Source of the DNA: Streptomyces rubradiris
GTDB taxonomy: Bacteria > Actinomycetota > Actinomycetes > Streptomycetales > Streptomycetaceae
Reading direction: 5' to 3'
Length of the DNA: 64,000 nucleotides
NCBI RefSeq assembly: GCF_016860525.1
Contig: NZ_BNEA01000015.1
Location: 4,452,001 to 4,516,000 of the forward strand
In this document: piece by piece, positions 11,190-38,901 of the stretch
How positions within the stretch are numbered: position 1 is the stretch's first letter
Layout of the letters: every line of letters begins with the position of its first letter
Position numbers and translations under genes: made by a program
Notes under the pieces: model-generated
What the model was told of the DNA's origin: nothing
Databases searched by the model: none
The model's input: only the letters and a program-made list of their open reading frames with translations

Positions 11190-12050
11190 ATGCGACCGGA
11201 TGACTGGCACCTCACCGAAGACATCGACGCCTTCCTCGCCCGGGCCGGGGACTTCCTGCGCTCGCGCCCGGATCTGCACACCATGGCGCTGACGGTCACC
11301 GAGACCCTGCGCGCCGACGGCCCGGGGGCGTACGCAGCCGAGGCCCCGCTCTTCGGCTACCTGGAGGAGTCGGGTGAGGTCCGTGCCGCCTTCCACCGCA
11401 GGACGCGGGGTCTGCTGAGCCCCACCGTCCTCACCCCGGAGTGGGCCGACGCCCTCGCCGCCCGGTTGGCCGGCCTCGGCCACGTGCTCCCCGGGGTCAG
11501 CGCCGAGCAGCACACCGCCGCCGCCTTCGCCGAGGCGTGGCGGCGGCGCGCGGGCGCCACGCCGGCCCTGCGCACGCAGCGCGTCCGCCTGTACCGGCTC
11601 GGCACCCCGGCCCCGCCGGACCCGCACGCGGAGGGCCGGGCGCGGGTGGCCGGTGAGCGGGACCACGAGCACCTCGTGCGCTGGTGCCGCGCGTTCACGG
11701 CGGACGTCGGGGAGGACTTCCCCGCGGACGACGCCGGCTGGCCCGGCACCCGCTTCGCCGCCAAGCGCTTCACGTTCTGGGAGACGCCGGACGGCACGCC
11801 CGTCTCCATGGCCGGCGCGACCCCGATGGTCGCCGGCCACGTCCGGGTGGACCCCGTCTACACCCCGGCCCCCCTGCGCGGCCGCGGTTACGCGGGCGCG
11901 GTGACGACGGCGGTGGGCCGGGCCGTGCTGGCCGCGGGCGCACGCACGGTGGTCCTGTTCGCGGACCCGGCCAACCCCACCAGCACCGCGCTCTACCAGC
12001 GCATCGGGTACGACCCGGTCGCCGAGTTCACGGTGTACGACTTCACGTGA
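11190..12050 (+). CDS. GNAT family N-acetyltransferase
   Basis: 286 residues from the ATG at 11190. The C-terminal half is a GNAT fold with the acetyl-CoA loop RGRGYAGAVT (Q/R-x-x-G-x-G/A) and the end ALYQRIGYDPVAEFTVYDF, a typical strand 6-helix 4-strand 7. The N-terminal 120 residues form the extra helical half seen in double-domain GNATs. The substrate is unknown. The gene is divergent from the UvrA paralogue. Confidence 0.85.
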   Translation: MRPDDWHLTEDIDAFLARAGDFLRSRPDLHTMALTVTETLRADGPGAYAAEAPLFGYLEESGEVRAAFHRRTRGLLSPTVLTPEWADALAARLAGLGHVLPGVSAEQHTAAAFAEAWRRRAGATPALRTQRVRLYRLGTPAPPDPHAEGRARVAGERDHEHLVRWCRAFTADVGEDFPADDAGWPGTRFAAKRFTFWETPDGTPVSMAGATPMVAGHVRVDPVYTPAPLRGRGYAGAVTTAVGRAVLAAGARTVVLFADPANPTSTALYQRIGYDPVAEFTVYDFT

Positions 12051-12102
12051 GGCCGGGCGTGCGCCGGACGGCGCTGTCATAGCCGCCTCCCCGGCGCCCC
12101 CC

Positions 12103-26273: not shown

Positions 26274-27035
26274 ATGGCCGACGCACCGTACAAGCTGATC
26301 CTCCTCCGCCACGGCGAGAGCGAGTGGAACGCGAAGAACCTGTTCACCGGCTGGGTGGACGTGAACCTGAACGAGAAGGGCGAGAAGGAGGCAGTCCGCG
26401 GCGGCGAGCTTCTGAAGGACGCCGGTCTCCTGCCCGACGTGGTCCACACGTCCCTCCAGAAGCGCGCGATCCGCACGGCCCAGCTGGCGCTGGAGGCCGC
26501 GGACCGCCACTGGATCCCGGTCCACCGCTCCTGGCGCCTGAACGAGCGCCACTACGGCGCCCTGCAGGGCAAGGACAAGGCGGCGACGCTCGCCGAGTTC
26601 GGCGAGGAGCAGTTCATGCTCTGGCGCCGCTCCTACGACACCCCGCCCCCGCCGCTGTCGGACGACTCCGAGTTCTCCCAGGCCCACGACGCGCGCTACG
26701 CGACGATCCCGCCGGAGCTGCGCCCGCGCACGGAGTGCCTGAAGGACGTCGTCATCCGGATGCTCCCCTACTGGTACGACGCCATCGTCCCCGACCTCCT
26801 GACCGGCCGCACGGTCCTGGTCGCCGCCCACGGCAACAGCCTGCGCGCCCTGGTCAAGCACCTGGACGGCATCTCCGACGCCGACATCGCGGGCCTGAAC
26901 ATCCCGACGGGCATCCCCCTGGTCTACGACCTGGACACCGACTTCAAGCCGGTCACCCCCGGCGGCAAGTACCTGGACCCCGAGGCAGCGGCAGCAGCCA
27001 TCGAGGCGGTCAAGAACCAGGGCAAGAAGAAGTAA
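26274..27035 (+). CDS. gpmA: 2,3-bisphosphoglycerate-dependent phosphoglycerate mutase
   Basis: 253 residues from the ATG at 26274. The catalytic His is in [10 protein letters not shown] (H13), the second His in VAAHGNS, and [12 protein letters not shown] is intact. The enzyme interconverts 3- and 2-phosphoglycerate in glycolysis and gluconeogenesis. The last 19 bases of the coding sequence, including the stop, recur exactly at 34443-34461; together with nearby integrases this marks the 3' end of gpmA as an integration site that leaves the protein complete. Confidence 0.96.
27017..27035 (+). repeat. att-like 19-bp repeat, copy 1 (end of gpmA)
   Basis: ccagggcaagaagaagtaa ends exactly at the gpmA stop. 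The same 19 bases occur at 34443-34461. Identity stops abruptly on both sides, as expected of an attachment-site core. An integrase pseudogene lies 640 bp to the right, reading towards this site. Confidence 0.7.
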
Positions 27036-27047
27036 CACCACACCATC

Positions 27048-27087
27048 AAGCCCCCGACCTGCGAAAATCCTCGCGGGGCGGGGGCTT
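27048..27087 (+). terminator. gpmA terminator
   Basis: A 9-bp perfect stem (aagcccccg / cgggggctt) with extra pairing inside the loop begins 12 bp after the gpmA stop. The second att-like copy at 34443 is followed by a similar but diverged hairpin. Confidence 0.75.
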
Positions 27088-27098
27088 CTTGGTGGGGC

Positions 27099-27136
27099 TG
27101 GGCCGCCCCTGGGCCGTCAGGCTTGAGTGGGCCGAC
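27099..27136 (+). repeat. TGGGCCGTC direct repeats beside att copy 1
   Basis: TGGGCCGCC (27099) and TGGGCCGTC (27110) stand 11 bp apart, with a third, TGGGCCGAC, at 27128. The same 11-bp-spaced pair occurs at 30419-30438 and 34316-34335, each next to an attachment site and a tyrosine recombinase remnant. They look like arm-type integrase or excisionase sites. Confidence 0.5.
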
Positions 27137-27302
27137 GCGTCAGGCGCGTGTGCAAGCGGAACGCGATGAGGAAGCCGACGAGCACAGCAGCTTTCTGTGG
27201 AACGTCGAGCCAGATGGGCAGCATCGCGATCACGCTGCCGATCAAGGGCATCGGCAGCGGATAGGCGGAGATGTGGATGGTGAGCCCCGGGCGTGCGAGC
27301 AT
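27117..27302 (-). CDS. Small membrane protein (61 aa)
   Basis: From the ATG at 27302 with GGAGG six bases upstream. Two hydrophobic stretches are present (YPLPMPLIGSVIAMLPIWL and KAAVLVGFLIAFRL), and the end is basic. It lies at the left edge of the island, between the gpmA terminator and the integrase remnant, and its 3' end overlaps the TGGGCCGTC repeats. No family is recognised. Confidence 0.5.
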   Translation of the reverse strand: MLARPGLTIHISAYPLPMPLIGSVIAMLPIWLDVPQKAAVLVGFLIAFRLHTRLTRRPTQA

Positions 27303-27345
27303 GGGTGTCCTCCAGGTGTTGGTACGCGCTACCTGCATTGGAGAC

Positions 27346-27373
27346 AGGGCCGCTCCTGCCGGGGAGCGGCCCT
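27346..27373. terminator. Stem-loop in island left arm
   Basis: An 11-bp perfect stem (agggccgctcc / ggagcggccct) with a 6-nt loop. The remainder of the 27303-27671 gap is AT-rich and shows no gene or other clear feature. Confidence 0.45.
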
Positions 27374-27671
27374 ACATTTCGGAATGACTTTATTTGGCTT
27401 TATCTGCCGTCCGCAAATCTCCAGGTTGGGCCTAGTGATGTTGGGTAGTTGACTTAGCTTGGGATGACTGGCTGGCGTAGTGCCGAGGCTTCGTGGAGCG
27501 CTCTCGATCTTGCTGGTGTGGCGCATGCACACAGGTGGGGGGTGTGCCAGTAGGTCGGTCGCGAAAGTTCGCCGCCTGATTTCATTTGTCACCCAAATGC
27601 CGCGACGCAAAACCCGAGCGCAGCATTTGGTCGCGCATTTGAAATGCTGGCGATGTGCAATTTTGCAGTCA

Positions 27672-28617
27672 TCAAATGCATGTCGGATCTGCGAGATTGC
27701 AATTTTGCTGCGCGTTGAAGAATTGGGTCACGGCATTTCGTGTGCGTTCCTGGCTCGACGGCATGAGATGCGCGTACACGCGGAGGGTCAGGCCCGGATC
27801 CGAGTGGCCGAGGTACTCGGCCAGGGCCTTGATGTTCTCCCTGGCGTCCAGGAGCACCGAAGCGTAGAAGTGGCGGAGGGCGCGCATGCCGTTCTCCCGG
27901 GACTCGGCGTACGACCCGCCCGGCTTCCGCTCGGGGATCACGCCAGCCGAGGCAAGGGCCCGCTTCCACACCTCCTCGTTGAGCGACGTGCGCCAGACGT
28001 GCCCGCCGCGCAGCCCGGTGAAGATCAGCCGCTTGGTCACTGGAGGCCCGTCCGCCACCTTCCACGGCAAGGTGATCTCGACCGGCGGGAACCGCTTCAT
28101 GTGGGCGCGGAGGGCGTCAGCGACCGGGCCGGGGAGCGGTACGTCCCGGAGCTTGCCGCCCTTCGGCGGGGCGAAGACCGGCTTGCTGCGGCTCAGCTTG
28201 AGCTGCTGGACCATGTGGAGGGTGTCCGACTCGAAGTCGATCGCGTCGACAGCCATGCCCAGGATCTCGCCTTAGCCCGCAGCCGCCGCCCAGGTCGACC
28301 ATGGCTTGGTAGCGCTCGGGCATGCCGGCCCGGACGGCGAAGACCCGTTCCGGCGTCCAGGGCACGACGCGCTTGTTGTTTACAGTCGGTGGACGGACGG
28401 AGCGAGCGGCGCACGGGTTCCGGGCAAGGTGCCCGTCGTCCACGGCCGCGCTCAGGGCGGCACGCACGTTGGAGTAGATGGTCCGGGCATACGAGCCACG
28501 GACGCCGTTCTCCTGGAGCTGCCGCACCCAATCGCGGATGTGAGCGGGCTGGAAGGAGCCGAGCGGTCGCGACCCCAGGTAGGGGTAGGCGTGCAACCGG
28601 AGCTGCGACTCCATCTA
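27672..28617 (-). pseudogene. Tyrosine recombinase (integrase) 1: truncated and frameshifted
   Basis: Two frames together encode a phage-type integrase. The upstream part (28117-28614) holds the core-binding domain (LRLHAYPYLGSRPLGSFQP, VDLGGGCGLR). The downstream part (27672-28256) holds the catalytic domain (ALRHFYASVLL, LGHSDPGLTLRVYAHLM). The frame breaks near 28265-28280, where GLR should run into xGEILGM; a few bases (probably 5) are missing. The N-terminal 60-70 residues are absent because the gene stops at the IS left end (28618). Its C-terminus points to the gpmA att copy. Confidence 0.8.
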
Positions 28618-29516
28618 ACAACGGCTAACGCAATGAGCCCAGTTGGCGGTGGGCGATCAGGCAGCAGGCGAGTTTGAGGAACGCTTCGTGGATGTCGGTC
28701 CGGTGTTCCCATCGGATCTGCAGGCGCCGGAAGCCGTGCAACCACGCGAAGTTTCTTTCGATCACCAAGCGGTAGGCACCCAGGCCGGTGCCGTGTCGTG
28801 TCCCGCGGCGGGCGATGGCCGGCACGATGCCGCGGGCGCGGACCTGGTCGCGATAGATGTCGTGGTCGTAGCCGCGGTCCGCGAAGAGCGAGTCGGGTCT
28901 GCGGCGCGGACGGCCGACCCGGCCACGGACCGGCGGGATTGCATCGAGCAGGGGCAGGAGCTGGGTGACGTCGTTGCGGTTGCCGCCGGTCAGCAGGACC
29001 GCGAGCGGGGTGCCGTACCCGTCGGTGATCGAATGGTGTTTCGAGCCTGTCCGGCCTCGGTCGACCGGCGAGGGGCCCGTGCGGCTCCCCCTTTTAGCGC
29101 TCTGACGTGGGAGGAGTCGACCGCGCAGCGGGACCAGTCCAGCCGCGAGGCTGCGTTCAGTTCGGCCAGCAGGACCTCGTGGAGCCGTTGCCACACGCCG
29201 GCCTCGTTCCAGTCCCGAAGGCGACGCCAGCAGGTCATCCCCGAGCCACATCCCAGCTCCTTCGGGAGGTACTCCCACTGGATCCCGGTGTGCAGCACGT
29301 AGAGGATCCCGCACAGCACCTCCCGGTCCGGTAAGGCCTTGCGGCCCGGGTACCGGAAGCGCCGTTCGCGCTGCGGCAGCAGCGGCTCCAGGCGATCCCA
29401 CAGCTCATCCGACACGATCCACGGCGACGTCCCCACACCAAGCCGAACGCTCAACTCGCACCCCGGACACGGCCACCAGCGCCAGACCACCTCATTCTCA
29501 TTGTGTTAGGCGTTGT
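28618..29516 (-). mobile_element. IS5-family insertion sequence
   Basis: About 900 bp, bounded by 20-bp inverted repeats that match at 18 positions (28618-28637 and 29497-29516). The single transposase gene fills the element on the minus strand. No target duplication is visible (CTA on the left, AAG on the right). The rest of integrase 1 is missing beyond the right end, so an adjacent deletion probably followed insertion. Confidence 0.85.
28625..29490 (-). CDS. IS5-family transposase in two overlapping frames
   Basis: Frame 1 (GTG 29490 to 28990) covers the N-terminal domain and the first catalytic Asp (CAVDSSHVRALKGG). Frame -1 continues from about 29095 to 28625 with TGPSPVDRGRTGSKHH, the second Asp (LFADRGYDHD) and the Glu (VIERNFAWLHGF). 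The frames meet at CTAAAAGGGGGA (complement of 29087-29098), a homopolymer run where a -1 slip joins ALK to RGSRTGPSP. All DDE residues survive, so the enzyme may be made by programmed frameshifting, known for several IS5/IS427-group elements. A plain frameshift mutation is the alternative. Confidence 0.75.
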
Positions 29517-29522
29517 AAGTGG

Positions 29523-30277
29523 TCACGCTTCGCCTTGATGTGGCTCCTGGCCTGTCTGGTGGAGCCAGTCGTACCCGTCTATCCAGCCAATCACGCTCGG
29601 AGCGCTCGGGTCCGATATTTCACCGCCAGATGTATCGACAGATATCCCAAAGGACCGGACGTGGCGATGGAACGTTATTGTGCAGGGTTTATCGAGGTAC
29701 TGATGGTAGTGCTCGGGAAGTGGCGTTAGCGACTGATGCCCTTCCTCTAGACTGGAGAAAGCCAATCCACTTGCTACCTCTCGCGAATGTTGGTGCATCC
29801 TCTGCGCGACTTCGTCGGCGTCCCGAGATAGGGGTTCAAGGTATCTTGCAAGAAATGACTCGTGTGCGACGTCGAAGTAGCGAACTGCGCCGTTCAAGTG
29901 CCGTCCTTCTTCGCCGCCCTCCGTAGGCTCTAAATGGCCAATCCTCACCCAGGGCAAAGCAATCAGTTCACTGTTTCCGTTGTCCTCAAAGGCGCAGACC
30001 ATAGGCGCCCTAACTACTGCCAGATTGACTACAATCCTTGGAAAGAGTAGTGGGTGCCCCTCGGTGGGCTTACTGAGTGACTTTAGATGGTCGGCGACCT
30101 CAAGAGAGGGAGGGTAAGGGACTACCGCGTTGGTAAATACACGGATATCTTGCCCGTCGAGGCCGTGAATCTTGGAAAACTCGTTGTGTTCGACGGGTGC
30201 AGATTTTGCCTCTGTAGATCCTTGGCTGTAATCCCCGCGTGAAGCTCTGCGAAAGGCGGCGGCTCGTCCGCGCTCAT
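29523..30277 (-). pseudogene. Hypothetical protein with one-base frameshift
   Basis: An ORF starts at ATG 30277 behind AGGGGTGAA and reads MSADEPPPFAELHAG, then goes out of frame. Restoring one G in the GGGG run (complement of 30233-30236) continues into a long open frame (DYSQGSTEAKSAPVEH ... WLHQTGQEPHQGEA) ending at 29523, about 250 residues in total. The later frame alone has only internal starts, such as the ATG at 30002. No domain is recognised. Composition is AT-richer than the core genes. A sequencing error in the G run would make it intact. Confidence 0.5.
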
Positions 30278-30418
30278 TTCACCCCTAGGTATCTGATCCC
30301 GCTAGCTTAGCCAGTTTCTTTGATACGGTGGGTCCTCTTTGCGTCACAGTGTAGATGCCACTTCCGGCGCGGGACCTCGGTGTCAGCCCGCCATGAGCAC
30401 GGGTAGTGTGATCGCTCA

Positions 30419-30438
30419 TGGGCCGTCTCTGGGCCGTC
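30419..30438 (+). repeat. TGGGCCGTC pair, middle copy
   Basis: Two TGGGCCGTC 9-mers at 30419 and 30430, 11 bp apart, the same arrangement as at 27099 and 34316. It lies 125 bp left of the tRNA-Arg-derived att core. Confidence 0.5.
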
Positions 30439-30457
30439 CGGACGTTACGGCCAGCGG

Positions 30458-30480
30458 TACAGCAACGTAGTGCAGCAACC
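30458..30480 (+). repeat. 23-bp arm-type repeat, left copy
   Basis: tacagcaacgtagtgcagca plus acc matches 30656-30678 at 20 of 23 positions. Each copy is itself an imperfect double of tRcagcaR. The two copies flank the tRNA-derived core about evenly, as integrase arm sites do in an attP. Confidence 0.6.
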
Positions 30481-30562
30481 CCAGCAACCGCCCATGACCG
30501 ACAGCCACTCCCAGGAGTCGCACGGTGCCCTGTATGACCCCTGCTGACCGACCTCTGTAGAG

Positions 30563-30605
30563 CTACGGATCAGAAGGTTGCAGGTTCGAATCCTGCCGAG
30601 TGCAC
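30563..30605 (+). other. Attachment-site core: 3' half of tRNA-Arg(ACG)
   Basis: The sequence from the anticodon loop (ctacgga) through the 3' anticodon stem, variable loop, T-arm (ggttcgaatcc) and acceptor end (gtgcac) corresponds, as I recall it, to Streptomyces tRNA-Arg(ACG). The 5' half of the tRNA is absent, so this is not a functional tRNA gene but the part elements duplicate on integration. It is flanked by 23-bp repeats and followed by an integrase remnant. No intact tRNA-Arg(ACG) occurs in the window. Confidence 0.75.
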
Positions 30606-30612
30606 ACAGATG

Positions 30613-30640
30613 AGAGGCCCCGGATTACTCCGGGGCCTCT
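30613..30640 (+). terminator. Terminator hairpin after tRNA-Arg fragment
   Basis: A 12-bp perfect stem (agaggccccgga / tccggggcctct) with a TTAC loop, followed by TTGCGTTT. It is the kind of terminator found behind tRNA genes, here carried with the att core. Confidence 0.75.
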
Positions 30641-30655
30641 TGCGTTTCAGGGGCA

Positions 30656-30678
30656 TACAGCAGCGAAGTACAGCAACC
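30656..30678 (+). repeat. 23-bp arm-type repeat, right copy
   Basis: Second copy of the 23-bp repeat, 20/23 identical to 30458-30480. It ends 3 bp before the stop codon of integrase remnant 2. Confidence 0.6.
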
Positions 30679-30681
30679 GCG

Positions 30682-31335
30682 TCAGCCGGCGCCGCCCATG
30701 GCACTGGACAGCTTGCCGAGCGCGGCTCGCACCTCTTCCTCGCTGGCTTCGGCGTAGACCTCCATCGTCATGGCGATCTGGGAGTGCCGGAGGATCCGCT
30801 GGGCGACCTTCGGGTGGACCTTGAGCGCGACCAGGAGCGAACTGCACGTGTGCCGGGTGTTCCGGAGCGGGATGACGCGGACGCCGGCGCGACGAGCCCG
30901 CAGCGCGAACATCCGGGTGAGGTTCCCCGGCTCGATCGGAGTGCCGTACTTCGTGGTGAAGACCAGCCCGTGCGTGTCCTGCCACAGCTCACCGGCCGCC
31001 TTCCGGTCCCCGGTCTGCTGAGCCCGCCGCATGCGGAGGGCCTTGAGGCACAGCGCCGGGAGTGGAAGGAAGTCGTCTGACTCCTCGGTCTTGGTTTCCC
31101 GGTGGAGGATCTGCCGCCCGGCCCGCTGGATCTGGTGATCCACGTAGATTTCACCTGCGTCGAAGTCCACCGACTTCAAGGTGAGTCCCAGGACCCCCCC
31201 GGCGCAGGCCGAGGCAGAGTACGAGCATCCAGGCCGCGAAGAGGTGATCGTCCCGCGCGGCGCAGTCGGCGAGGAACCGGCCCGCCTCGACGACCGACCA
31301 GGGCTTGATCCGGCGGCGGCGCGGTTTGGGGACCT
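30682..31335 (-). pseudogene. Tyrosine recombinase 2: 5'-truncated and frameshifted
   Basis: The catalytic domain is readable on the minus strand: KPWSVVEAGRFLADCAARDD, LVLCLGLRRG, then after a frame change VLGLTLKSVDFDAGEIYVDH ... RHTCSSLL ... LRHSQIAMTMEVYAEAS to the stop at 30682. The break falls in a run of seven G (complement of 31194-31200), where two bases are missing or one is extra. Upstream of KPRRRR a TAG stops the frame and the N-terminal DNA-binding domain is gone. It sits 4 bp from the right arm repeat of the tRNA-Arg att core and was presumably its integrase. Confidence 0.8.
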
Positions 31336-31400
31336 AGTTAGAGCCACTGCGCGCCGGAGCGAGCCCAGGAGAGGCACCTGCAGGTCATGCCTGCCCAGCC

Positions 31401-32942
31401 TCAATCGTTCTCATAGTGCCCTGTATTTCGAAGCCTTTTCAGCCTCAACTCGAGCGCCTGCCCTTCATCTCGCGCCCTCTGAAGATTCTGACGGATTTCG
31501 GCTTCGCTGAAGTTTGTTTCTTGACGACTCTCCGCCTGTTCGAGTAGCTGCGCCCAAGTCGCCTCCTCTGTTCGTGCCTCCTCGTACAGCGATCGTAGGG
31601 TCGCCAAGCCGTTTTTTAGCCCTTGTCCACCTCTGGCGATCTCACCAGCCTCTGCCGCGCGCACGAGCCTGCGCGCCTTCGCTGCCCCCGCCCCGCCTTC
31701 CAAAGCGACTTGTCTGGCACGCCTAACGAGAGGCCCATCAACCCAATACACGGGTTGCCCGTTCATCACTTTTCGCTGAGAATTCTGCTTTAGTCTGTGA
31801 ATCAACTTCCTAACACGCACTACGTCGGCCTGGGCAAATTCGCGGTCCGCTTGGAATGTTTCATCATCAGGATGAAGCTCGAGAGAATCACGAGCTCGCT
31901 CAAGCTGCGCCATGGCATGATCCCGATGTACAGTCAGAGCGAACATGAGATCTTCATATTCGGCCTCTGGTAGCACCAATGGACGATCGACACTTGCGGC
32001 GAGATTTTCAGCCTGCGCAACCGTCGATGCGCTGACAGATGCGCCAAGCTCCTTTCTCGCCACTTGAAGAAAGGCGCCCAACTGAAGGATTAGGAAGTCG
32101 ACTCCGCATCTTTCCTTCATTTCAGCGACGAGCTCAGGGCGTGCGCCGACGATTAGGCCGGCCTCCTTCCTGACCCAGTCCTCTTTTACGTCGTTTGTCA
32201 CCAGCAGTATCGGCGAACTCAGCTCCTCGGCACGACGCAGCACTTGCTCCCACACGAAGTAATCACCGTGCGCATTATCCTTCTTGTTGGAATCCTTGTA
32301 ACCGGGCGGGCGTTCATCTTGCGCTCTCCTCTCGTACTCCTCTATCAAGGCACGAGTCTCGTCATCATTGAAACCCTGTCCGGTCTTACCATCCAAAATC
32401 TCGGCAAGTTCAGACAGGACGGGGTCGCCAGAGATTACTCCCTCTAGAGTGAGATCGAACGATTCCGCATGCTTCACCACCTCAGCCTTTACGCGCGTGA
32501 ATACCTCTTGGATAGGTTCAACAAGGGCGCGCTTATCCTCTGTCGCCATCGAGCACCTTTTAGCGAAGGCGTAAAGCTCTTGGAGAACTTTTGCTTTATG
32601 GTCGTCCAATGACTTAGGAACCGAAGCGTAGAGTGCGAGGTGATCCTTAACCGCATCCACCCTTCGATTGTAATATTCCGCCGCTACCTGGTGGGGAATC
32701 CAAAGTCGATCGCCAACTCGTCGAAGCGCCTGAAGGAGTTCCTCCCGGGCGTCAGGCGTAAATCTGTACAGCTCCAACAGAACGTTTGTATCCACCACCA
32801 CCATGTAGCTCCTTACACCCGCTTCATAGTCGCTAGCGGGACGGCGCCAAAGGCCTTCAAAGGCGGCGAGAAACGAGGAGGTCATGAGGCTTTGTACTCC
32901 AGCAACACTGCGGCGAGGTGAAATATGGACAGTTTGTTCCAT
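31401..32942 (-). CDS. Large PIN-domain protein (PIN_8/DUF4935-like nuclease)
   Basis: 513 residues if started at ATG 32942; the ATG at 32885 (MTSSFLAAFEGLW) is equally plausible and fits the family better. The PIN fold shows the first acidic site in MVVVDTNVLLELYR (D51), the pair NAHGDYFVWEQVL, and LVTNDVKEDW as the last catalytic Asp strand. The C-terminal half is helical, Arg/Glu-rich and coiled-coil-like. PIN domains are Mg-dependent ribonucleases, common in toxins and defence genes. No small antitoxin gene adjoins. Codons are AT-richer than in the core genome, and the gene is divergent from the SRA-HNH gene. Confidence 0.7.
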   Translation of the reverse strand: MEQTVHISPRRSVAGVQSLMTSSFLAAFEGLWRRPASDYEAGVRSYMVVVDTNVLLELYRFTPDAREELLQALRRVGDRLWIPHQVAAEYYNRRVDAVKDHLALYASVPKSLDDHKAKVLQELYAFAKRCSMATEDKRALVEPIQEVFTRVKAEVVKHAESFDLTLEGVISGDPVLSELAEILDGKTGQGFNDDETRALIEEYERRAQDERPPGYKDSNKKDNAHGDYFVWEQVLRRAEELSSPILLVTNDVKEDWVRKEAGLIVGARPELVAEMKERCGVDFLILQLGAFLQVARKELGASVSASTVAQAENLAASVDRPLVLPEAEYEDLMFALTVHRDHAMAQLERARDSLELHPDDETFQADREFAQADVVRVRKLIHRLKQNSQRKVMNGQPVYWVDGPLVRRARQVALEGGAGAAKARRLVRAAEAGEIARGGQGLKNGLATLRSLYEEARTEEATWAQLLEQAESRQETNFSEAEIRQNLQRARDEGQALELRLKRLRNTGHYEND

Positions 32943-33017
32943 ACTGCATAACTGAGACGATTTCAGGCATTAATCAGCTCTGTAGACCATCCTAATGATG
33001 GCTGGCATCATGAGGGG

Positions 33018-33890
33018 ATGATTGGTGAGCTTCCTGACATCACTGTGGGGCAGACCTTCCCCAGCCGGCGCGCGTTGCACGATGCTGGCGTGCATCGGCC
33101 GCTGCAGGCAGGCATCTGCGGCACCAAGCAGACAGGGGCAGAGTCCATCGTCGTGTCAGGCGGATACAAGGACGACGAAGACTACGGAGCTGTGATCATC
33201 TATACCGGACATGGTGGTCGCGACCCCGAAACACAAAAGCAGGTGGCAGAGCAAAGCCTCACAGATCCGGGTAATGCAGCCCTGGTCACGAGCTACCTGG
33301 AAGGTTTTCCGGTCCGAGTAGTTCGCGGAGCTCAATCACGTTCCCCATATGCCCCTGCCGAGGGCTACCGATATGATGGTCTTTTCAATGTTAGCAGTTT
33401 CGGAAGCAAGATGGGTGTCGACGGTTTTCGGGTATGGCAGTTCCGCCTCGAGGCTAAGAATCAGGCCGAGAAGATAGCTGACTCCAACCGAGAAGACAAC
33501 TCTCCGACCTCAGCCGAGGACTTGAGCCCTCGGGATCTCGTAGCCACCCAACGGGTCGTACGAAATACTGGCGTGGCCCGGCAAGTTAAAACGTGGCATC
33601 TCGATCAATGTCAAGTTTGTGGAACGCGTCTCGTCGTCCCAGGGGGAACGTACAGTGAGGCGGCGCATATCCAGGCCTTGGGGGCGCCGCACAACGGAGC
33701 TGACATCGTTGGAAACATCTTGTGCCTTTGCCCCAATTGCCATGTCCTCTTTGACGCTGGGGCCATCTATCTACGGGACGACCTCGTAGTGATGGCAGGT
33801 GAGACAGAAGTGGGCCCCCTCCGTCTGGACTCGAGGCACCAAATTCGGCTGGAGTGCGTGCGAAGCCATCGAGCAAGATGGCGCCGGTAA
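33018..33890 (+). CDS. SRA-HNH modification-dependent endonuclease
   Basis: 290 residues. The N-terminal SRA/YDG domain (about 1-150) has VSGGYKDDEDYGAVIIYTGHGG and AEGYRYDGLFNV, the base-flipping pocket that reads modified cytosine. A linker follows, then an HNH domain with zinc cysteines C198/C201 and C238/C241 and HNH residues H217 (SEAAHIQ), N233 and H242 (CPNCHVLFD). Similar SRA-HNH enzymes (Sco5333, TagI) cut DNA carrying 5-methylcytosine, a type IV restriction that blocks foreign methylated DNA. All catalytic residues look intact. The purine run AGGGG directly abuts the ATG, so the start is unusual. Composition is atypical; it is island cargo. Confidence 0.85.
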   Translation: MIGELPDITVGQTFPSRRALHDAGVHRPLQAGICGTKQTGAESIVVSGGYKDDEDYGAVIIYTGHGGRDPETQKQVAEQSLTDPGNAALVTSYLEGFPVRVVRGAQSRSPYAPAEGYRYDGLFNVSSFGSKMGVDGFRVWQFRLEAKNQAEKIADSNREDNSPTSAEDLSPRDLVATQRVVRNTGVARQVKTWHLDQCQVCGTRLVVPGGTYSEAAHIQALGAPHNGADIVGNILCLCPNCHVLFDAGAIYLRDDLVVMAGETEVGPLRLDSRHQIRLECVRSHRARWRR

Positions 33891-34312
33891 CCATGGGGCG
33901 GGCGGGGTCACGGACTGCGGCCAGCACTAGGCCAGCCCTCGCGTTGGACGCCAGGTCGGCTCGCGGCCCCGGGTTGTCGCTGGCTCCGCACCACAACGCA
34001 CCAGATCGAGCGGGGAACAGCGGGGAATCACGGGGAAGGAAGCCGAGCCCGACGAAGACACGGATCGGCCGTTCGCCGAGGGCAGCGACCAAACCGGCCG
34101 TTAACGATCGCAGCTTCCCAAGCTGAGGGCTCGGCCGGTTGCGGCCGTCAGGCGCTGGCCGTCGAAACAGGCAGCGTGGCTGAGGCCGGCGGGGGTACAA
34201 CGAGGCACACGCGTGCGTGGTCGGTCGGCGCACTCGCCGTCGTGGCGGGCTGTCGTCGGCTGAGGTTCGGGCTGGCGCGTCGAGGGCGCCGGCCGTCAGG
34301 CGAGTGCGGCGA
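33891..34312. other. Non-coding stretch of island
   Basis: No convincing gene is present; long minus-strand frames here lack starts, ribosome sites and any family resemblance. It contains three head-to-tail copies of cggggaaNNN (34011-34040) and an 8-bp inverted repeat (accggccg / cggccggt, about 34082-34140). It is probably the remains of an element's end. Confidence 0.4.
34011..34040 (+). repeat. Three 10-bp direct repeats (cggggaaNNN)
   Basis: cggggaacag, cggggaatca and cggggaagga follow one another with exact 10-bp phasing, one helical turn. They could be recombinase, excisionase or replication-initiator sites; nothing adjacent decides. Confidence 0.6.
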
Positions 34313-34315
34313 AGC

Positions 34316-34335
34316 TGGGCCGTCCCTGGGCCGTC
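34316..34335 (+). repeat. TGGGCCGTC pair beside att copy 2
   Basis: Two TGGGCCGTC 9-mers at 34316 and 34327, the same 11-bp spacing as the other two pairs. The 22-bp block starting at 34314 matches 27097-27118 with one mismatch. A single TGGGCCGTC also lies at 34525, on the other side of the core. Confidence 0.55.
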
Positions 34336-34442
34336 CGAGGCCGCTCGACAGGGGCCAAGGACGACCAACGACGACCACCAGGCGTACGACTCCACCGCCC
34401 CTGACCAGCAAAAACCCAGCTCGCCAAGATCCCCGGCAACAC

Positions 34443-34461
34443 CCAGGGCAAGAAGAAGTAA
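34443..34461 (+). repeat. att-like 19-bp repeat, copy 2
   Basis: Exact copy of the last 19 bases of gpmA including its stop (27017-27035), with unrelated sequence before it. It is followed by a hairpin at 34477-34511 (gccccct / agggggc) resembling the gpmA terminator, and then by the third integrase remnant. It marks the right boundary, or a tandem junction, of the gpmA-targeting element. Confidence 0.7.
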
Positions 34462-34476
34462 GCGGAGCTGTAGCGG

Positions 34477-34511
34477 GCCCCCTGTCTGCGGTTTGTCTGC
34501 GGGGAGGGGGC
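34477..34511 (+). terminator. Diverged copy of gpmA-type terminator
   Basis: A 7-bp stem (gccccct / agggggc). The loop holds two copies of gtctgcgg separated by ttt. Position and layout relative to the att copy match the true gpmA terminator. Confidence 0.4.
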
Positions 34512-34539
34512 TGTTCTCTTGGAGTGGGCCGTCGGGCGC

Positions 34540-34655
34540 GGAACGTACCGGGCTTGGCTCTGTCGAAGACACCGGTCACGGCCTTGAGGGTGTGTTCCTG
34601 GCTGGAGGGTACGAAGCGTGCGTACCGCGAAGCGTCAGGGTGGGGCTATGAGCCG
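34540..34655 (-). pseudogene. Tyrosine recombinase 3: C-terminal remnant
   Basis: On the minus strand HSPTLTLR, then after a one-base deletion YARFVPSSQEHTLKAVTGVFDRA, matches the C-terminal end of integrase 1 (LTLRVYAHLMPSSQERTRNAVTQFF). Only about 35 residues survive, overlapping the 3' end of the next hypothetical gene. The remnant reads towards att copy 2, the same geometry as integrase 1 and att copy 1. Confidence 0.6.
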
Positions 34656-35347
34656 TTTCCTCGAAGCGCGAGCTGTGCTGCCGGACGACATGGACGGCCT
34701 GCGCGCGCACATCGTTGCTCGAAGTCCGGGGGCAGCCAGCCGCGACCGAGCAGGCGCGGATGGGCAGGAAAGGCTGTGATCGCGGCAAGGGCGAAGGCCA
34801 GCGACGCCCACGGTGTCTGGACGCGAACTGTTCCGTGATCCCCACGCGTGTCGACGAAACTCGTCTGGAAGACATCAACAGCTACGAGGTCGATGGTGCT
34901 CAGCCCTCCCCACGCGAGGTCGAGTTCATACACCGGATGCGCGAAGTGCAGTTTCTGCAGGGTGAGGGTGACTTCGCCTGTCGCTTCCGCTACCCACCGG
35001 GGCTGAGCGTCACGTTCTGCTTGACGGCGGCGAGCGGCATTGCCGATCGCATTGGCCGCAAGGGTGCCGATCACCACTCCGGGGTTGCCGAACGCGAAGA
35101 CATCGTTGCGTCGGTAGCGTCCATCGCCGAGGGCTCGCCAGGTCATACGTTGCCCAGGTCCAACAGCGAGGGCCCGATCGCCATGATGGAGTCGTGCCGT
35201 TGTGGCCACAACTGGTCGCCGGGCCACCTGCCCTTCGAGGATGTCGGCGAGGATGTCACAGGAGTGCCAAAGGTACTCGTCCAGCGGCGACCATAACGGC
35301 TGAGCAGGGGGCTCTGGCGGCGGCGCAAAGGGGTTGGCCACTGTCAC
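34646..35347 (-). CDS. Hypothetical protein
   Basis: 233 residues. It starts MTVANPFAPPPEPPAQPLW and ends in an Arg/Ala-rich stretch. A middle segment (GVVIGTLAANAIGNAARRRQAE) is mildly hydrophobic and could be a membrane-associated helix. No family is recognised. The end overlaps the integrase 3 remnant, so the last 20 residues may have been replaced. It lies just outside the repeat-bounded island. Confidence 0.5.
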   Translation of the reverse strand: MTVANPFAPPPEPPAQPLWSPLDEYLWHSCDILADILEGQVARRPVVATTARLHHGDRALAVGPGQRMTWRALGDGRYRRNDVFAFGNPGVVIGTLAANAIGNAARRRQAERDAQPRWVAEATGEVTLTLQKLHFAHPVYELDLAWGGLSTIDLVAVDVFQTSFVDTRGDHGTVRVQTPWASLAFALAAITAFPAHPRLLGRGWLPPDFEQRCARAGRPCRPAAQLALRGNGS

Positions 35348-35680
35348 TCCAGCGTCCGGTTGAGAGGTCCGGGGTCACGGTTCGCGATCAAGCCTACTCA
35401 GGCCGTCATGCGTGAGGCGGTGGGCGGGGGCAGAGCGGTCGCAACCGTCGGCGGCGAACCCCAGGCTGGATCCCCTTGTCCCAATGGATCGCCCAAGTGT
35501 GGCTGTACGCCAAGACCAAGATGGGTGCTTCTTTCCACCGGACAGTGGAGCCGCCCGGCTTGTCTCGACCTCAGACAGAAGGCGCTGGGCGTGCTCGGCT
35601 CCTGAGAGAGCCGCCCGAGAGCGCACGATTGCCGCGAGGCCGCTTCAGGACGAAGAGGGCGCTCCGGTAGGGTCCGCCGC
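35348..35680. other. Gap without recognised gene
   Basis: 333 bp of moderately GC-rich DNA with short frames on both strands. None has a ribosome site and a recognisable product, and I see no repeat or hairpin of note. Confidence 0.4.
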
Positions 35681-35878
35681 GTGACCGATGCCCCGGCCTG
35701 CCCCGAATGCGGCCTGACCATGAAGTCCGGCGGCTTCGTACTTTCTCGGCGGGAAGAGGACGGCCGGCGGGCCTGCCGGACGCTGTGGGGGTGTGCCGGC
35801 GGGCATACCTGGTGGCGTTGGGCCGACCGCCTGGACGAGCCCTTCGAGGTGTGCCCGGTCCCGGAACTGTTCCGCTGA
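35681..35878 (+). CDS. Small zinc-ribbon-like protein (65 aa)
   Basis: Starts at GTG 35681 (MTDAPACPECGLTMKSGGF). Two cysteines of a ribbon knuckle (CPEC) are followed by a CAGGHTW segment and a final Cys in EVCPVPE, so one zinc site is possible. Short proteins of this type are common in Streptomyces and have no known function. Confidence 0.55.
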   Translation: MTDAPACPECGLTMKSGGFVLSRREEDGRRACRTLWGCAGGHTWWRWADRLDEPFEVCPVPELFR

Positions 35879-35912
35879 TACCGGACGCTGAGCACCGCTG
35901 CGGTCGGGGCGC

Positions 35913-36584
35913 TCAGGTCGCGTCCACGTGGCCGTTCAGATGGAAGAGGAGCCACTCGAGCCAGTCGGCCGTGACTCCGGTGGACGCGGCCCAGTCGTGC
36001 ATGGTGCTGACGTAGGTGGCGTACCGGGTGGGCCAGTGGCGTGTGCCGGCCGCTTTCCAACTGGTCCAGCCGAGGGCGTTCAGCGAGCGGAAGACCCGGT
36101 CGTCGAGGATCAGGGCCCGCTCGCACGGGGCTTCGCGGTCGTCCACGGCGGCGAACCACTTGGTGAAGAACGACCGTCCCACTCCCTTGAGGGCGAACTT
36201 CGCGTAGGCCCCCTTCAGGTCGCCTGCCCGCACCGCTTCACGCGTGGTCCGCAGGACAGCGGTCCGGTTCGGGTCGGACAGGGCCGCTTCGGTGTACCGC
36301 GGCCCACGCCCGTTGGTGGTGCCCGAGCCCCAGATCATGACGGCCACGAACAGGTCGCGCAGGCTTTCCGGATCGTCGTCAACACGGTCACGGAGGCGGG
36401 CCAGGTCGCCCCGGCTGATGAGCCGGTCACCGCTCGTCCCGCCGGCGCATTCGACGCCTGCGTCGAGCACGTGGGTCGCTCCATGCTGCTCCAGCCGCGG
36501 GCGCCACGTTCCCGGACGGAAGCGCACGGGCTGCTGCTCGCAGTCACCGTAGCGGGCGACGAGCTTTCGGAGCTGCTCCTCCAT
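35913..36584 (-). CDS. 8-oxoguanine DNA glycosylase-like (OGG-fold) protein
   Basis: 223 residues from the ATG at 36584, with AGGGGGGAAC before it. The segment ALKGVGRSFFTKWFAAVDD fits a helix-hairpin-helix with a Lys nearby. CERALILDDRVFRSLNALGW fits the catalytic-Asp helix of HhH-GPD enzymes. Annotators call this family 8-oxoguanine DNA glycosylase OGG fold protein. Activity on oxidised guanine is not proven for it. It lies in the mixed region right of the island. Confidence 0.6.
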   Translation of the reverse strand: MEEQLRKLVARYGDCEQQPVRFRPGTWRPRLEQHGATHVLDAGVECAGGTSGDRLISRGDLARLRDRVDDDPESLRDLFVAVMIWGSGTTNGRGPRYTEAALSDPNRTAVLRTTREAVRAGDLKGAYAKFALKGVGRSFFTKWFAAVDDREAPCERALILDDRVFRSLNALGWTSWKAAGTRHWPTRYATYVSTMHDWAASTGVTADWLEWLLFHLNGHVDAT

Positions 36585-36660
36585 GTTCCCCCCTGACCAT
36601 GTGCCCGCGATCCGCGAGCCGCCAACCGCAGCGTACGGGAGGGGCGCCAGAGCCACACGC

Positions 36661-36762
36661 CTATCCCCGATGACGGACGTACCAGACCACTGCCAACACG
36701 ATCAGGACCGACAGCGTGAACGCCCACACAGTGAGAGTGGCGTTGGCGGAGTGGTACACCAT
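36661..36762 (-). CDS. Small single-helix membrane protein (33 aa)
   Basis: From the ATG at 36762: a short polar start (MVYHSANAT), one transmembrane helix (LTVWAFTLSVLIVLAVVWYV) and a basic end (RHRG). The ribosome site is weak. Predicted from composition and a compact design typical of conserved small Streptomyces membrane proteins; function unknown. Confidence 0.45.
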   Translation of the reverse strand: MVYHSANATLTVWAFTLSVLIVLAVVWYVRHRG

Positions 36763-36978
36763 GGCGAGCACCCGGATACTGATTCCCCGCGCGCAGTAAG
36801 GCAATCGGTGAAGCCGGTCCCCGGGTCCGTGCGTCCCGCCGCCTCCACCGACTGAGGGCCTCCACGGCCGCTCATTACCTCCTGGGTAATCGACCGCCCG
36901 CCCCATCCCTGGCAGGGTCGAGCCCATCGGCAGGAACCCCCCGTCGGGTGCCGGCCCCGCAGTCGTGAGGAGAGCTTC

Positions 36979-37431
36979 GTGTTCAACAAGTCCAGCGGCA
37001 TCAACATGGGTTCAGAGGTCAGCGCCGAGGCCACCCGCGCCATAGTCCAAGACTTCCTCGCCGCCCGCCTCGCCGGAGACACCAAGCGGCTCGTGGAGAT
37101 CTTCGCCGACGAAGTCGACTGGCTGCTCGCCGAGAACCCGGTCGTTCCCTGGATCCGGCCGCGGTCCACCGGTGCCGAATGCGCCGCCCAGTTCACGGAG
37201 TTGGCGGAGCACACCGTGCCTGAGGACGCGCGTGCCTCCGTGGACGCCTTCCTCGTCGACGGGGCCGACGCCGTGCTGATGGGGCATGTGTCGGGGACCG
37301 TACGCGCCACGGGCAAGTCCTTCGAGGGGCCGTTCGCGTTGCGGCTCACCGTCGAGGGCGGGCGGATCGTCCGGCACCACCTCTATGAGAACAGTTTGTC
37401 GATCGCCGAGGCATGCACCCCCGATCGGTAA
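36979..37431 (+). CDS. NTF2-like / SnoaL-fold protein
   Basis: 150 residues from GTG 36979 behind GAGGAGAG; an internal ATG at 37006 is possible. The cone-shaped NTF2-like fold is indicated by AIVQDFLAARLAGDTKRLVEIFADEVDWLL and by GKSFEGPFALRLTVEGGRIVRHHLYEN. Members include limonene-epoxide hydrolases, SnoaL cyclases and many of unknown role; no substrate can be named. Confidence 0.75.
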   Translation: MFNKSSGINMGSEVSAEATRAIVQDFLAARLAGDTKRLVEIFADEVDWLLAENPVVPWIRPRSTGAECAAQFTELAEHTVPEDARASVDAFLVDGADAVLMGHVSGTVRATGKSFEGPFALRLTVEGGRIVRHHLYENSLSIAEACTPDR

Positions 37432-37441
37432 GACGCCGGGG

Positions 37442-37690
37442 TCAGACCTGGAGCGGGACCGGGTGTACCTCGTCCGCCCGGTGCCCCGCGCGTTCGTGGA
37501 CGCGTTGGACCGCCTCGGCCGACGGGGCCTCGGAGAGGCAGTAGACCGTGCCCGACTCCGGGTCCGCCCAGGCGTGTTCGAAGTGGACCGACTCCTCCTG
37601 CTCGATGGCGAGGTCGGCCTGGTGCGCCGCCATCAACTGGTCGGCCGTGATGCCCTGCATGCCGCGGTGGATGTCCATGAACCTGGCCAT
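37442..37690 (-). CDS. DUF4242 nickel-binding ferredoxin-fold protein
   Basis: 82 residues from the ATG at 37690, with GGAGG 11 bp upstream. The sequence (MARFMDIHRGMQGITADQL, AIEQEESVHFEHAWADPESG, GTVYCLSEAPSAEAVQRVHE) closely follows S. coelicolor SCO4226, a dimeric DUF4242 protein with a solved nickel-bound structure. His 8 and the His/Glu/Cys cluster are kept. Its physiological role is unclear; nickel buffering or delivery is inferred. Confidence 0.8.
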   Translation of the reverse strand: MARFMDIHRGMQGITADQLMAAHQADLAIEQEESVHFEHAWADPESGTVYCLSEAPSAEAVQRVHERAGHRADEVHPVPLQV

Positions 37691-37814
37691 GATCCCGCGC
37701 CTCCTTCCGGCCGGACGCTCCCCGCATCTCCATGCTCCGCCCCGCCGGCGGTGAGGGCACCCGGAGCGGCGGAGGGCCGGCGCGAAGCGTGTTCGCGCCG
37801 GCCCCGGTCGTCGT

Positions 37815-37973
37815 TCAGCCGCACTGGCAGGGGTTGCCCGACTGGCACCCACAGCCGCAGCCCGAGCCGCAGCCGCACGCGGCGACCAGCGGAAGGCTCC
37901 TGATCTCGGCGGGCTGCTCGGTCTCGCGCTCCTGCGTGGGGTCGGGCGTGGTGCTGCCAAGGGATTCGGCCAT
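37815..37973 (-). CDS. Small Cys-rich peptide (52 aa)
   Basis: From the ATG at 37973 with AGGAGGGG just upstream, a strong ribosome site. The first 30 residues are acidic and polar. The end is ACGCGSGCGCGCQSGNPCQCG, with eight cysteines in 21 residues, like a metallothionein-type metal-binding tail. It lies 124 bp upstream of the DUF4242 nickel-binding gene on the same strand. A role in metal handling is inferred; a lanthipeptide-like precursor is less likely as no modifying enzyme is near. Confidence 0.6.
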   Translation of the reverse strand: MAESLGSTTPDPTQERETEQPAEIRSLPLVAACGCGSGCGCGCQSGNPCQCG

Positions 37974-38211
37974 GGGTCCCCTCCTAATACCTCGGGGCAG
38001 GGATGCCCTCGCCCATTTCATGCCCATTCGGCCGGGCGCATCAACGGCGCACGGAGGCGTTCGGCCACCCCAGCCCGCCGGCCACCCCAGCCCGCCGACC
38101 GCCTCAGCCCGCCGACCGCCTTAGCCCGCCGGCTGCCAGGGGCCGGCGGCAGGCAACGCTGAGGCACTGGAAGAAACCGCAGCCCCAAACCCCTGCGGAA
38201 CCCCCGGAGGG

Positions 38212-38901
38212 CTACGCCCCCTCCACCCCCGTAACCGCCTGGATGTCCGACTGAAGCTCGTCCGCGTGCTCCCCGGTCACCAGGTACACCACCCGCTTCG
38301 CCACGGCCACCGCGTGGTCGGCGTACCGCTCGTAGTAGCGGCCCAGCAGCGTGACGTCGACCGCCGTCTCGATGCCGTGCTTCCAGCGGTCGTCGATGAG
38401 GTGCTGGAAGAGGGTGCGGTGCAGCAGGTCCATCTCGTCGTCGTCCTGCTCCAGCTGGAGGGCGAGGTCGACGTCCTTCGTCACGATCACCTCCGCCGCC
38501 TTCGCCATCAGGCGCTGCGCGAGCTGGCCCATCTCCAGGATGGTGGCGTGCAGGTCGTGCGGGACCGCCCGGTCGGGGAACCGCAGCCGCGCCAGCTTCG
38601 CCACGTGCTGGGCGAGGTCGCCGGAGCGTTCCAGGTCGGCGGACATCCGCAGCGACGTGACGACTATCCGCAGGTCCGTGGCCACCGGCTGCTGCCGGGC
38701 CAGCAGGGCTATCGCCCGGGCCTCCAGGTCGTGCTGGAGCTCGTCCACCTTCTGGTCGCCCTCGATCACGCTCTCGGCCAGCTTCAGGTCCGCGTCGAGC
38801 ATCGCGGTCGTGGCGCGTCCGATGGCCGACCCGACCAGCCGGGCCATCTCCACCAGTCCGTCGCCGATCGAGTCCAGTTCCTCGTGGTACGCGTCCCGCA
38901 T
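38212..38901 (-). CDS. phoU: Phosphate signalling protein PhoU
   Basis: 229 residues. Two three-helix PhoU repeats with the metal-binding motifs ELQHDLEARA / DLERSGDLAQHVAK and HRTLFQHL / GRYYERYADHAVAVAKR. PhoU links the Pst transporter to the PhoR kinase and dampens the Pho response when phosphate is ample. It is divergent from phoR-phoP, sharing a 238-bp control region with a candidate PHO box. Confidence 0.95.
   Translation of the reverse strand: MRDAYHEELDSIGDGLVEMARLVGSAIGRATTAMLDADLKLAESVIEGDQKVDELQHDLEARAIALLARQQPVATDLRIVVTSLRMSADLERSGDLAQHVAKLARLRFPDRAVPHDLHATILEMGQLAQRLMAKAAEVIVTKDVDLALQLEQDDDEMDLLHRTLFQHLIDDRWKHGIETAVDVTLLGRYYERYADHAVAVAKRVVYLVTGEHADELQSDIQAVTGVEGA

Follow-up and report, generated by a model that had tools for sequence, protein, structure and literature searches.

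The gpmA gene of Streptomyces rubradiris is followed by an island of foreign DNA, which was examined here in a stretch of 64,000 nucleotides from contig NZ_BNEA01000015.1 (hereafter the window; all positions are counted within it). gpmA lies at 26274-27035 on the forward strand and encodes 253 aa; a homologue was found in 131 of the 131 genus genomes searched. An earlier note on this DNA had claimed that the last 19 bases of the gene recur exactly 7.4 kb downstream, and an exact-repeat search confirmed this. Copy 1, the attL core, is found at 27017-27035 (+) and consists of the final gpmA codons and the stop codon on which it ends, as established by an in-frame check. Copy 2 is found at 34443-34461 (+), where it marks the right end of a first element and what appears to be its junction with a second. 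These are the sole exact copies in the 9.05-Mb genome, in which one further core-like site with 2 mismatches was detected. No additional match with 2 or fewer mismatches was found within the window, and none arose in 100 shuffled sequences, in keeping with the note's view that chance identity is negligible. The note had further named two outcomes that would speak against an island, namely a gpmA duplication and island-free close relatives carrying both copies. Neither was seen. The GpmA protein matches the window once, and copy 2 is therefore not a duplicated gpmA.

Attachment sites and integrase

Downstream of each core copy lie a strong hairpin (-37 and -32 kcal/mol) and an integrase remnant that reads towards the core, at 27696-28614 (-) and 34544-34624 (-), as the earlier note had described. 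The flanking arms were mapped with nhmmer models built without the window sequence. The P' arm at 27036-27134 (+) comprises a terminator-like hairpin (approximately 27048-27087) and then arm-type repeats near +63 and +74 (match at 27039-27134, E 7e-17). In the P arm at 34311-34442 (+), the core is preceded by arm repeats at -127 and -116 (E 3e-43 for 34311-34461). In 19 of 24 type A right ends, including that of the window, TGGGCCGT repeats were found at exactly these two distances; two of the remaining right ends have one repeat in place and three have displaced repeats. At left ends, an arm repeat is present at +63 and/or +74 in 29 of 32 cases. The repeats are altered in elements with more distant (~70%) integrases. 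The window element therefore has fixed-distance arm repeats on both sides, and its core pair, two arms and broken integrase match the description of an actinomycete integrative and conjugative element (AICE) as an integrase with flanking direct-repeat att sites. The att architecture mapped at gpmA is new here.

The first integrase remnant (integrase 1, 27696-28614, -) covers residues 104-411 in two frames and has lost its N-terminus. Residues 220-411 and 104-230 are found in different frames with one stop codon in each piece, and the first ~103 residues are gone. Against the intact relative P0002 the pieces show identities of 91% and 89%. Ten intact relatives have lengths of 405-415 aa, and nine of them are 90-97% identical to the first. 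The earlier note had suggested a search for such integrases beside gpmA elsewhere, and they were found in abundance. In a scan of named genomes, 528 encoded a relative; of the best 80 loci, 52 have gpmA directly beyond the 3' end of the integrase. Identity to an intact relative is at least 69% in 51 of the best 80 loci, and 49 of these 51 integrases, all except L087 and L088, lie just 3' of gpmA and read towards it. A tree built from 79 of the best 80 loci (one short row was dropped) contained a clade with 100/100 support made up of 54 integrases: 51 gpmA rows together with L131, L088 and L087. At gpmA in S. tailanensis two elements form an array, of which L131 is the second integrase; it shares its contig with L092, and its core junction was seen. 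The clade extends to Kitasatospora (L090) and Catenulispora (L093). The window fragment was not itself placed in the tree, and its membership of the clade follows from its 89-91% identity to P0002. Moreover, in the 131-genome set 13 of the 16 full-length integrase matches of at least 69% identity are located 3' of gpmA. Among nine plasmid records, pSLS not being one of them, the best integrase reached 63.5% identity and none was as close as these relatives. A gpmA-dedicated integrase clade is new here.

A sister clade of 25 integrases (L106, L108-L115, L117-L130, L132 and L133) also seems to avoid tRNA genes. ARAGORN, applied to as much as 3 kb of sequence depending on the length of the contig, found a single tRNA, 1.3 kb away, at L109. 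In an open reading frame (ORF) search, 11 of the sister integrases were found beside one protein-gene family and 2 beside another. We take the former family to be CdsA-like and the latter to be MiaA-like.

As had been proposed, the region downstream of gpmA was then compared across relatives. The exact 19-mer is present in 184 of 392 Streptomyces genomes, being common because gpmA ends in a conserved GKKK-stop. By a hand count, 20 of the 184 genomes contain two or more copies on one strand; in 15 of these 20, among the matches listed, the copies share a contig and are separated by 2.2 to 17.7 kb. Copy 1 forms the in-frame end of gpmA in every one of the 15, and the later copies do not. The 131 genomes were also searched with GpmA and PhoU, taking the best match of each per genome (lower-scoring paralogues were omitted, and integrase matches were considered only at ~67% identity or more). 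Both proteins are encoded on one contig in 122 genomes, and phoU is downstream of and convergent with gpmA in 96 of these. In these 96 genomes the gap between the two genes varies from 305 bp to 37.8 kb, with a median of 3.0 kb, and is at least 5 kb in 31. The gpmA downstream site behaves as an insertion hotspot.

Extent and contents of the island

The earlier note had placed the island at 27017-34461. This holds for the element bounded by the two cores but stops short of the full extent of the foreign DNA. Of the 131 genomes, G102 is the closest when judged by gpmA and phoU. It matches the window as far as 27087 and then from 36872 onwards, the DNA in between being unrelated; in other relatives the shared flank resumes at about 37434-37821. 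A different island of about 9.7 kb occupies the same place in G102 (L134), in which a gpmA-type integrase or second core was not found. Immediately beyond copy 2 lie the P' arm of a second element (34477-34533, +; E 8e-8) and, from a second gpmA-type integrase, a C-terminal scrap of 27 residues (34544-34624, -; E as low as 5e-9 for this stretch by itself). This order of core, P' arm and integrase scrap is read as the junction of two tandem elements. Because copy 2 abuts the remnant of the second element, the foreign DNA runs to about 36871 rather than 34461. The rest of this remnant, 34625-36871, is absent from the nearest relative and contains an OGG-like gene (35913-36656); a 250-bp piece of it (35642-35891) is also found inside the L038 element and in part near gpmA in L139. 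Beyond copy 2, neither a search of 34471-38300 that allowed as many as 6 mismatches nor the arm models revealed a third, degenerate core; where the second remnant ends on its right is therefore placed only by comparison with one relative. GC content is 62% in 27036-34461, 68% in 34462-36871 and 72-73% in the flanks.

The gene content of intact relatives was examined by comparing gene clusters of 19 elements and the window. A block of clusters is common to many of the elements, although not to all. In L046, Pfam identified an excisionase-like HTH_17 protein, RepSA (2e-151), DUF2637, FtsK/SpoIIIE (1.8e-34), GntR/UTRA, Nudix and HATPase domains. The DUF2637 protein is presumably SpdB-like and the GntR/UTRA protein KorSA-like. 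A FtsK/TraB-like cluster, whose L046 member was named by Pfam, is shared by 10 of 15 integrase-bearing elements, the window counted among the 15. On these domains, intact relatives such as L046 are judged to be pSAM2-type AICEs. The element of genome G069, described below, has only a weak FtsK match and genes that look unlike the pSAM2 type. Seven module proteins of L046 were searched in the window with no match to any of them, and the window island is therefore a remnant rather than a working AICE.

Two cargo genes are present in the first element. One encodes a PIN_8 domain protein of 513 aa (31401-32942, -; Pfam 7.6e-58) which had no match in PADLOC. The other (33018-33890, +) encodes a putative endonuclease containing both an SRA reader domain (Pfam SAD_SRA 6.9e-44) and an HNH nuclease domain (HNH_2 7.9e-10), and from these domains it is a possible type IV (modification-dependent) restriction enzyme. 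Against curated defence models it gave a PADLOC match of only E 7e-4 and an NCBIfam PT-DNA_restrict match below the cut-off. In the relatives, cargo was defined as 42 genes of at least 230 aa outside clusters common to five or more elements. A Pfam scan of 41 of these (two with coordinates one codon off; one gene inside the split L041 integrase was left out) found restriction or abortive-infection domains in 6 of 19 relatives: Shedu in L036, GmrSD and HEPN in L037, OLD-type and Mrr in L041, ApeA and Mrr in L045, Mrr in L147 and AbiTii in L149. Weaker cases are L038 (DUF4365), L046 and L047 (both NB-ARC), and the other ten have none. At a threshold of 1e-5, PADLOC matched 11 of 20 cargo proteins versus 1 of 10 host genes; one of the 11 is a transposase and surely spurious, and the second ten cargo proteins were partly picked for their Pfam hits. 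Defence-type cargo is accordingly described as a leaning and not as a measured enrichment. Its recurrence at gpmA is new here. Full-length Mrr-type proteins are encoded at L041:16255-17853, L045:821-2485 and L147:7963-9558, each matching PADLOC mREase_IV at ~1200 bits.

Pieces of other mobile DNA are embedded in the island. At the truncated end of integrase 1 lies an IS5-family insertion sequence (28619-29506, -; NCBIfam IS5_3 1.7e-38 for 28625-29401), whose ends, set by eye, have imperfect repeats with TAA on both sides. DNA comparison revealed an attP-like stretch of a tRNA-Arg(ACG) element at 30457-30700 (+), in which a P arm and a P' arm surround a tRNA 3' fragment. It is followed by a second integrase remnant of tRNA-Arg type (30682-31404, -; Pfam PF00589 1.4e-9; 96% protein identity to the tRNA-Arg element). 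The same genome contains an AICE in tRNA-Arg(ACG), L157 (C15:4252500-4270500), 215-228 kb away and with 12.8 kb between its tRNA repeats. Compared with this AICE, 30457-31404 shows 97% DNA identity on the integrase side and 85% on the right-end side. The main segments of the L157 Rep/Tra block are 83-96% like those of the gpmA AICE L046. Together, the tRNA-Arg piece and the common Rep/Tra block are taken, from these comparisons, as probable integrase-module swapping between AICE backbones. L157 also has a stray gpmA-type arm match at 12023-12079. In the window, an isolated gpmA-type arm repeat is found at 30419-30440 (+; weak match, E 0.017). A stretch at 29523-30300 is low in GC (56% for 29507-30440) and contains a 159-aa ORF with no Pfam or PADLOC match. 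Lastly, a small ORF of 73 aa (27117-27338, -) clusters with ORFs of three other gpmA elements.

Crossover and origin of the island

The site of exchange could be located in genome G069, where one element occurs twice, as L141 at gpmA and as L142 at a second site, the two copies being 99.96% identical over 11,073 aligned bp. The second site contains a partial core, with a left junction of CCATGG-CAAGAAGAAGTAG and a right junction of CCCAGGG-CGAGAAGCGAC. Assuming a simple crossover without repair, these junctions map the exchange to the GGC Gly codon, which occupies positions 5-7 of the core. Because the exchange made by tyrosine recombinases spans several bases, GGC is at least one edge of the overlap. 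The pair would represent a natural off-target integration by the gpmA integrase. Moreover, cores were compared at 16 loci: the left copy ends in TAA and the right copy in TAG at 6 of them, with the opposite arrangement at 2; from the differences at these 8 loci, the stop codon after integration is that of the element.

A crossover at the gpmA Gly codon means that integration re-supplies the final codons, the stop and the terminator hairpin. Hairpins following the core average -36.6 kcal/mol on element sides (n = 32, including window copy 1) versus -19.5 in shuffled sequences, and -36.0 versus -21.8 on single-copy or right-end sides (n = 26, including window copy 2). Stem pairing is kept through base changes, one pair in the 32 being U-A in 18, G-C in 7 and C-G in 7. 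A count of hairpins below -15 kcal/mol was dropped, as shuffled sequences also pass on average. The earlier note's proposal that the element re-supplies gene end and terminator is thus seen directly in the G069 sequence, and would extend to the window by analogy.

With these results, there is strong confidence that the island is a decayed, composite remnant of AICEs for whose tyrosine integrase the 3' end of gpmA serves as attB. The clade at gpmA, the P arm at copy 2 and the G069 duplicate uphold the original idea of an island anchored in this gene. The integrase would recombine a core common to attP and gpmA, as junctions in relatives demonstrate. Through a crossover at GGC the element would give gpmA its last Lys codons, stop codon and terminator hairpin, and the host's own ending would be displaced to the far end of the element; both are visible in G069 and presumed for the window. 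A second element, of which only the integrase end survives beside copy 2, would have docked at the same site, as its arm and integrase remnants suggest. In later events, whose order is not established, integrase 1 would have been broken, IS5 inserted at its truncated end, Rep and Tra removed and a piece of a tRNA-Arg AICE brought in. The PIN_8 and SRA-HNH genes would remain as cargo, plausibly retained for defence.

Several observations weigh against this explanation. The empty site predicted in the earlier note, with the gpmA terminator joined directly to sequence near 34462, was not seen in relatives, the flank of the nearest one resuming at 36872. In some genomes (e.g., L021, L038, L042 and L135) gpmA is followed by sequence 70-72% like 34437-34639, but there it belongs to other elements, as their P' arm and integrase end, and not to an empty site. 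An empty-site strain of the window's own species was not found. The two cores of the window are identical, so that no crossover point is visible there. No match to the RepSA or the TraB-like protein of L046 was found in the window, other Rep types not having been searched. The clade is not wholly faithful to gpmA: L087 is truly at another gene, and at L088 the contig ends 127 bp past the integrase, so that its site cannot be judged. In the 131-genome set, the match in G011 and the second copies in G023 and G069 are away from gpmA. Finally, the gap measure misses 26 of the 122 genomes, in which phoU flanks gpmA on the opposite side.

Other origins were considered for the repeat and for the island. 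It is highly improbable that the repeat is a chance or recombination by-product, such as a duplication of the gpmA tail, unrelated to integration. The frequency of the 19-mer in the genus could favour this idea, but copy 2 is preceded by a conserved P arm that is not gpmA sequence, the window has one gpmA, and the same element occupies two sites in G069; duplication and chance were ruled out on these grounds. A phage or prophage remnant using gpmA is very unlikely, if slightly less so. A tyrosine integrase alone cannot separate phage from AICE, and the integrases of phages are only distantly related (no more than 31% identity among the matches listed, 20 of 25). None of the 25 matched phage records, however, has an integrase that reaches 60% identity, and FtsK/TraB-like genes recur in the relatives. 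Among the Pfam names obtained for L046 genes and scanned cargo, the only ones suggestive of particles or packaging were a sub-threshold T7_gp14 (L143) and Terminase_5 on a transposase (L149). A prophage was therefore rejected.

A less remote, though still doubtful, alternative is that the island arrived as one composite element with both integrases and an unrecombined tRNA-Arg attP, rather than by serial integration and rearrangement. The stretch with both arms around the tRNA fragment looks like such an attP, and the isolated gpmA-type arm repeat abuts it. The similarity between the Rep/Tra blocks of L157 and L046 indicates that module swapping happens. A tandem junction at the tRNA site would nevertheless look the same as attP, and rearrangement after integration is equally possible.

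Comparison with known systems

The gpmA site is not wholly new. In S. coelicolor, islet Gi-8 (SCO4210-4213, 3.8 kb) was reported with a 19-bp perfect repeat in the portions consulted of Jayapal et al. (2007; PMC1934918). It holds an mrr-like gene, SCO4213, and is described as absent from S. lividans in parts of PMC1934918 and PMC3017869. The main text of PMC1934918 nowhere mentions SCO4209, phosphoglycerate or gpm; SCO4209 is given as phosphoglycerate mutase in passages of PMC12727718 and PMC7244524. Gi-8 thus resembles the present element in adjoining SCO4209 by locus tag, in its 19-bp perfect repeat and in its restriction-type gene, and differs in size (3.8 versus 7.4 kb); the repeats were compared by length and not by letters. 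The Mrr-type proteins of the relatives are possibly the same gene as SCO4213. Within the portion of the open literature that was surveyed, no paper was found that describes gpmA or a phosphoglycerate mutase gene as the edge of an island or as a site of attachment.

It is conceivable, although improbable, that each docking event, by swapping the last codons, stop and terminator of the gene for the main glycolytic phosphoglycerate mutase, retunes the level of GpmA while the cargo slot trades anti-phage genes. If so, the element would tie carbon flux to phage defence. In sections of PMC7244524, GpmA (SCO4209) is stated to be 1.7- to 2.6-fold (the wording is ambiguous) more abundant in S. coelicolor than in S. 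lividans; the protein did not follow its transcript, for which the authors suggest PhoP. The difference fits such retuning, as S. coelicolor has Gi-8 and S. lividans is reported without it, with strains that may differ between papers. A clean test would ask whether the element's replacement gene ending alters central-pathway expression. The mapped attB/attP pair could also be used across the genus, and the docking site is a place to look for phage-defence genes.

Like pSAM2-type AICEs, intact gpmA elements carry an integrase, a small HTH excisionase-like ORF, RepSA, FtsK/TraB-like and Nudix genes; unlike them, they target the 3' end of a protein gene and not a tRNA, and the window copy is without Rep and Tra. 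Protein-gene targets have been described in other systems. In the part of PMC9513070 consulted (section 13), AICE03 of strain RLB3-6 is an AICE in the protein gene rlmN with divergent integrase and excisionase. It has an 11-bp repeat and a different target gene, and the likeness is one of description rather than of integrase comparison. PAISt of S. turgidiscabies, in the accounts available, likewise integrates at a protein-gene 3' end, that of bacA, and differs in its 8-bp palindrome and in being described as a large island. According to section 6 of PMC3218068, AICEs with tyrosine integrases overwhelmingly occupy tRNA genes, the pSLS subfamily excepted, which agrees with the earlier note's remark that tRNA sites are commoner than sites of the gpmA kind. 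Set against these mostly tRNA-targeting Streptomyces AICEs, the elements at gpmA stand out by a dedicated integrase clade in a core glycolytic gene.

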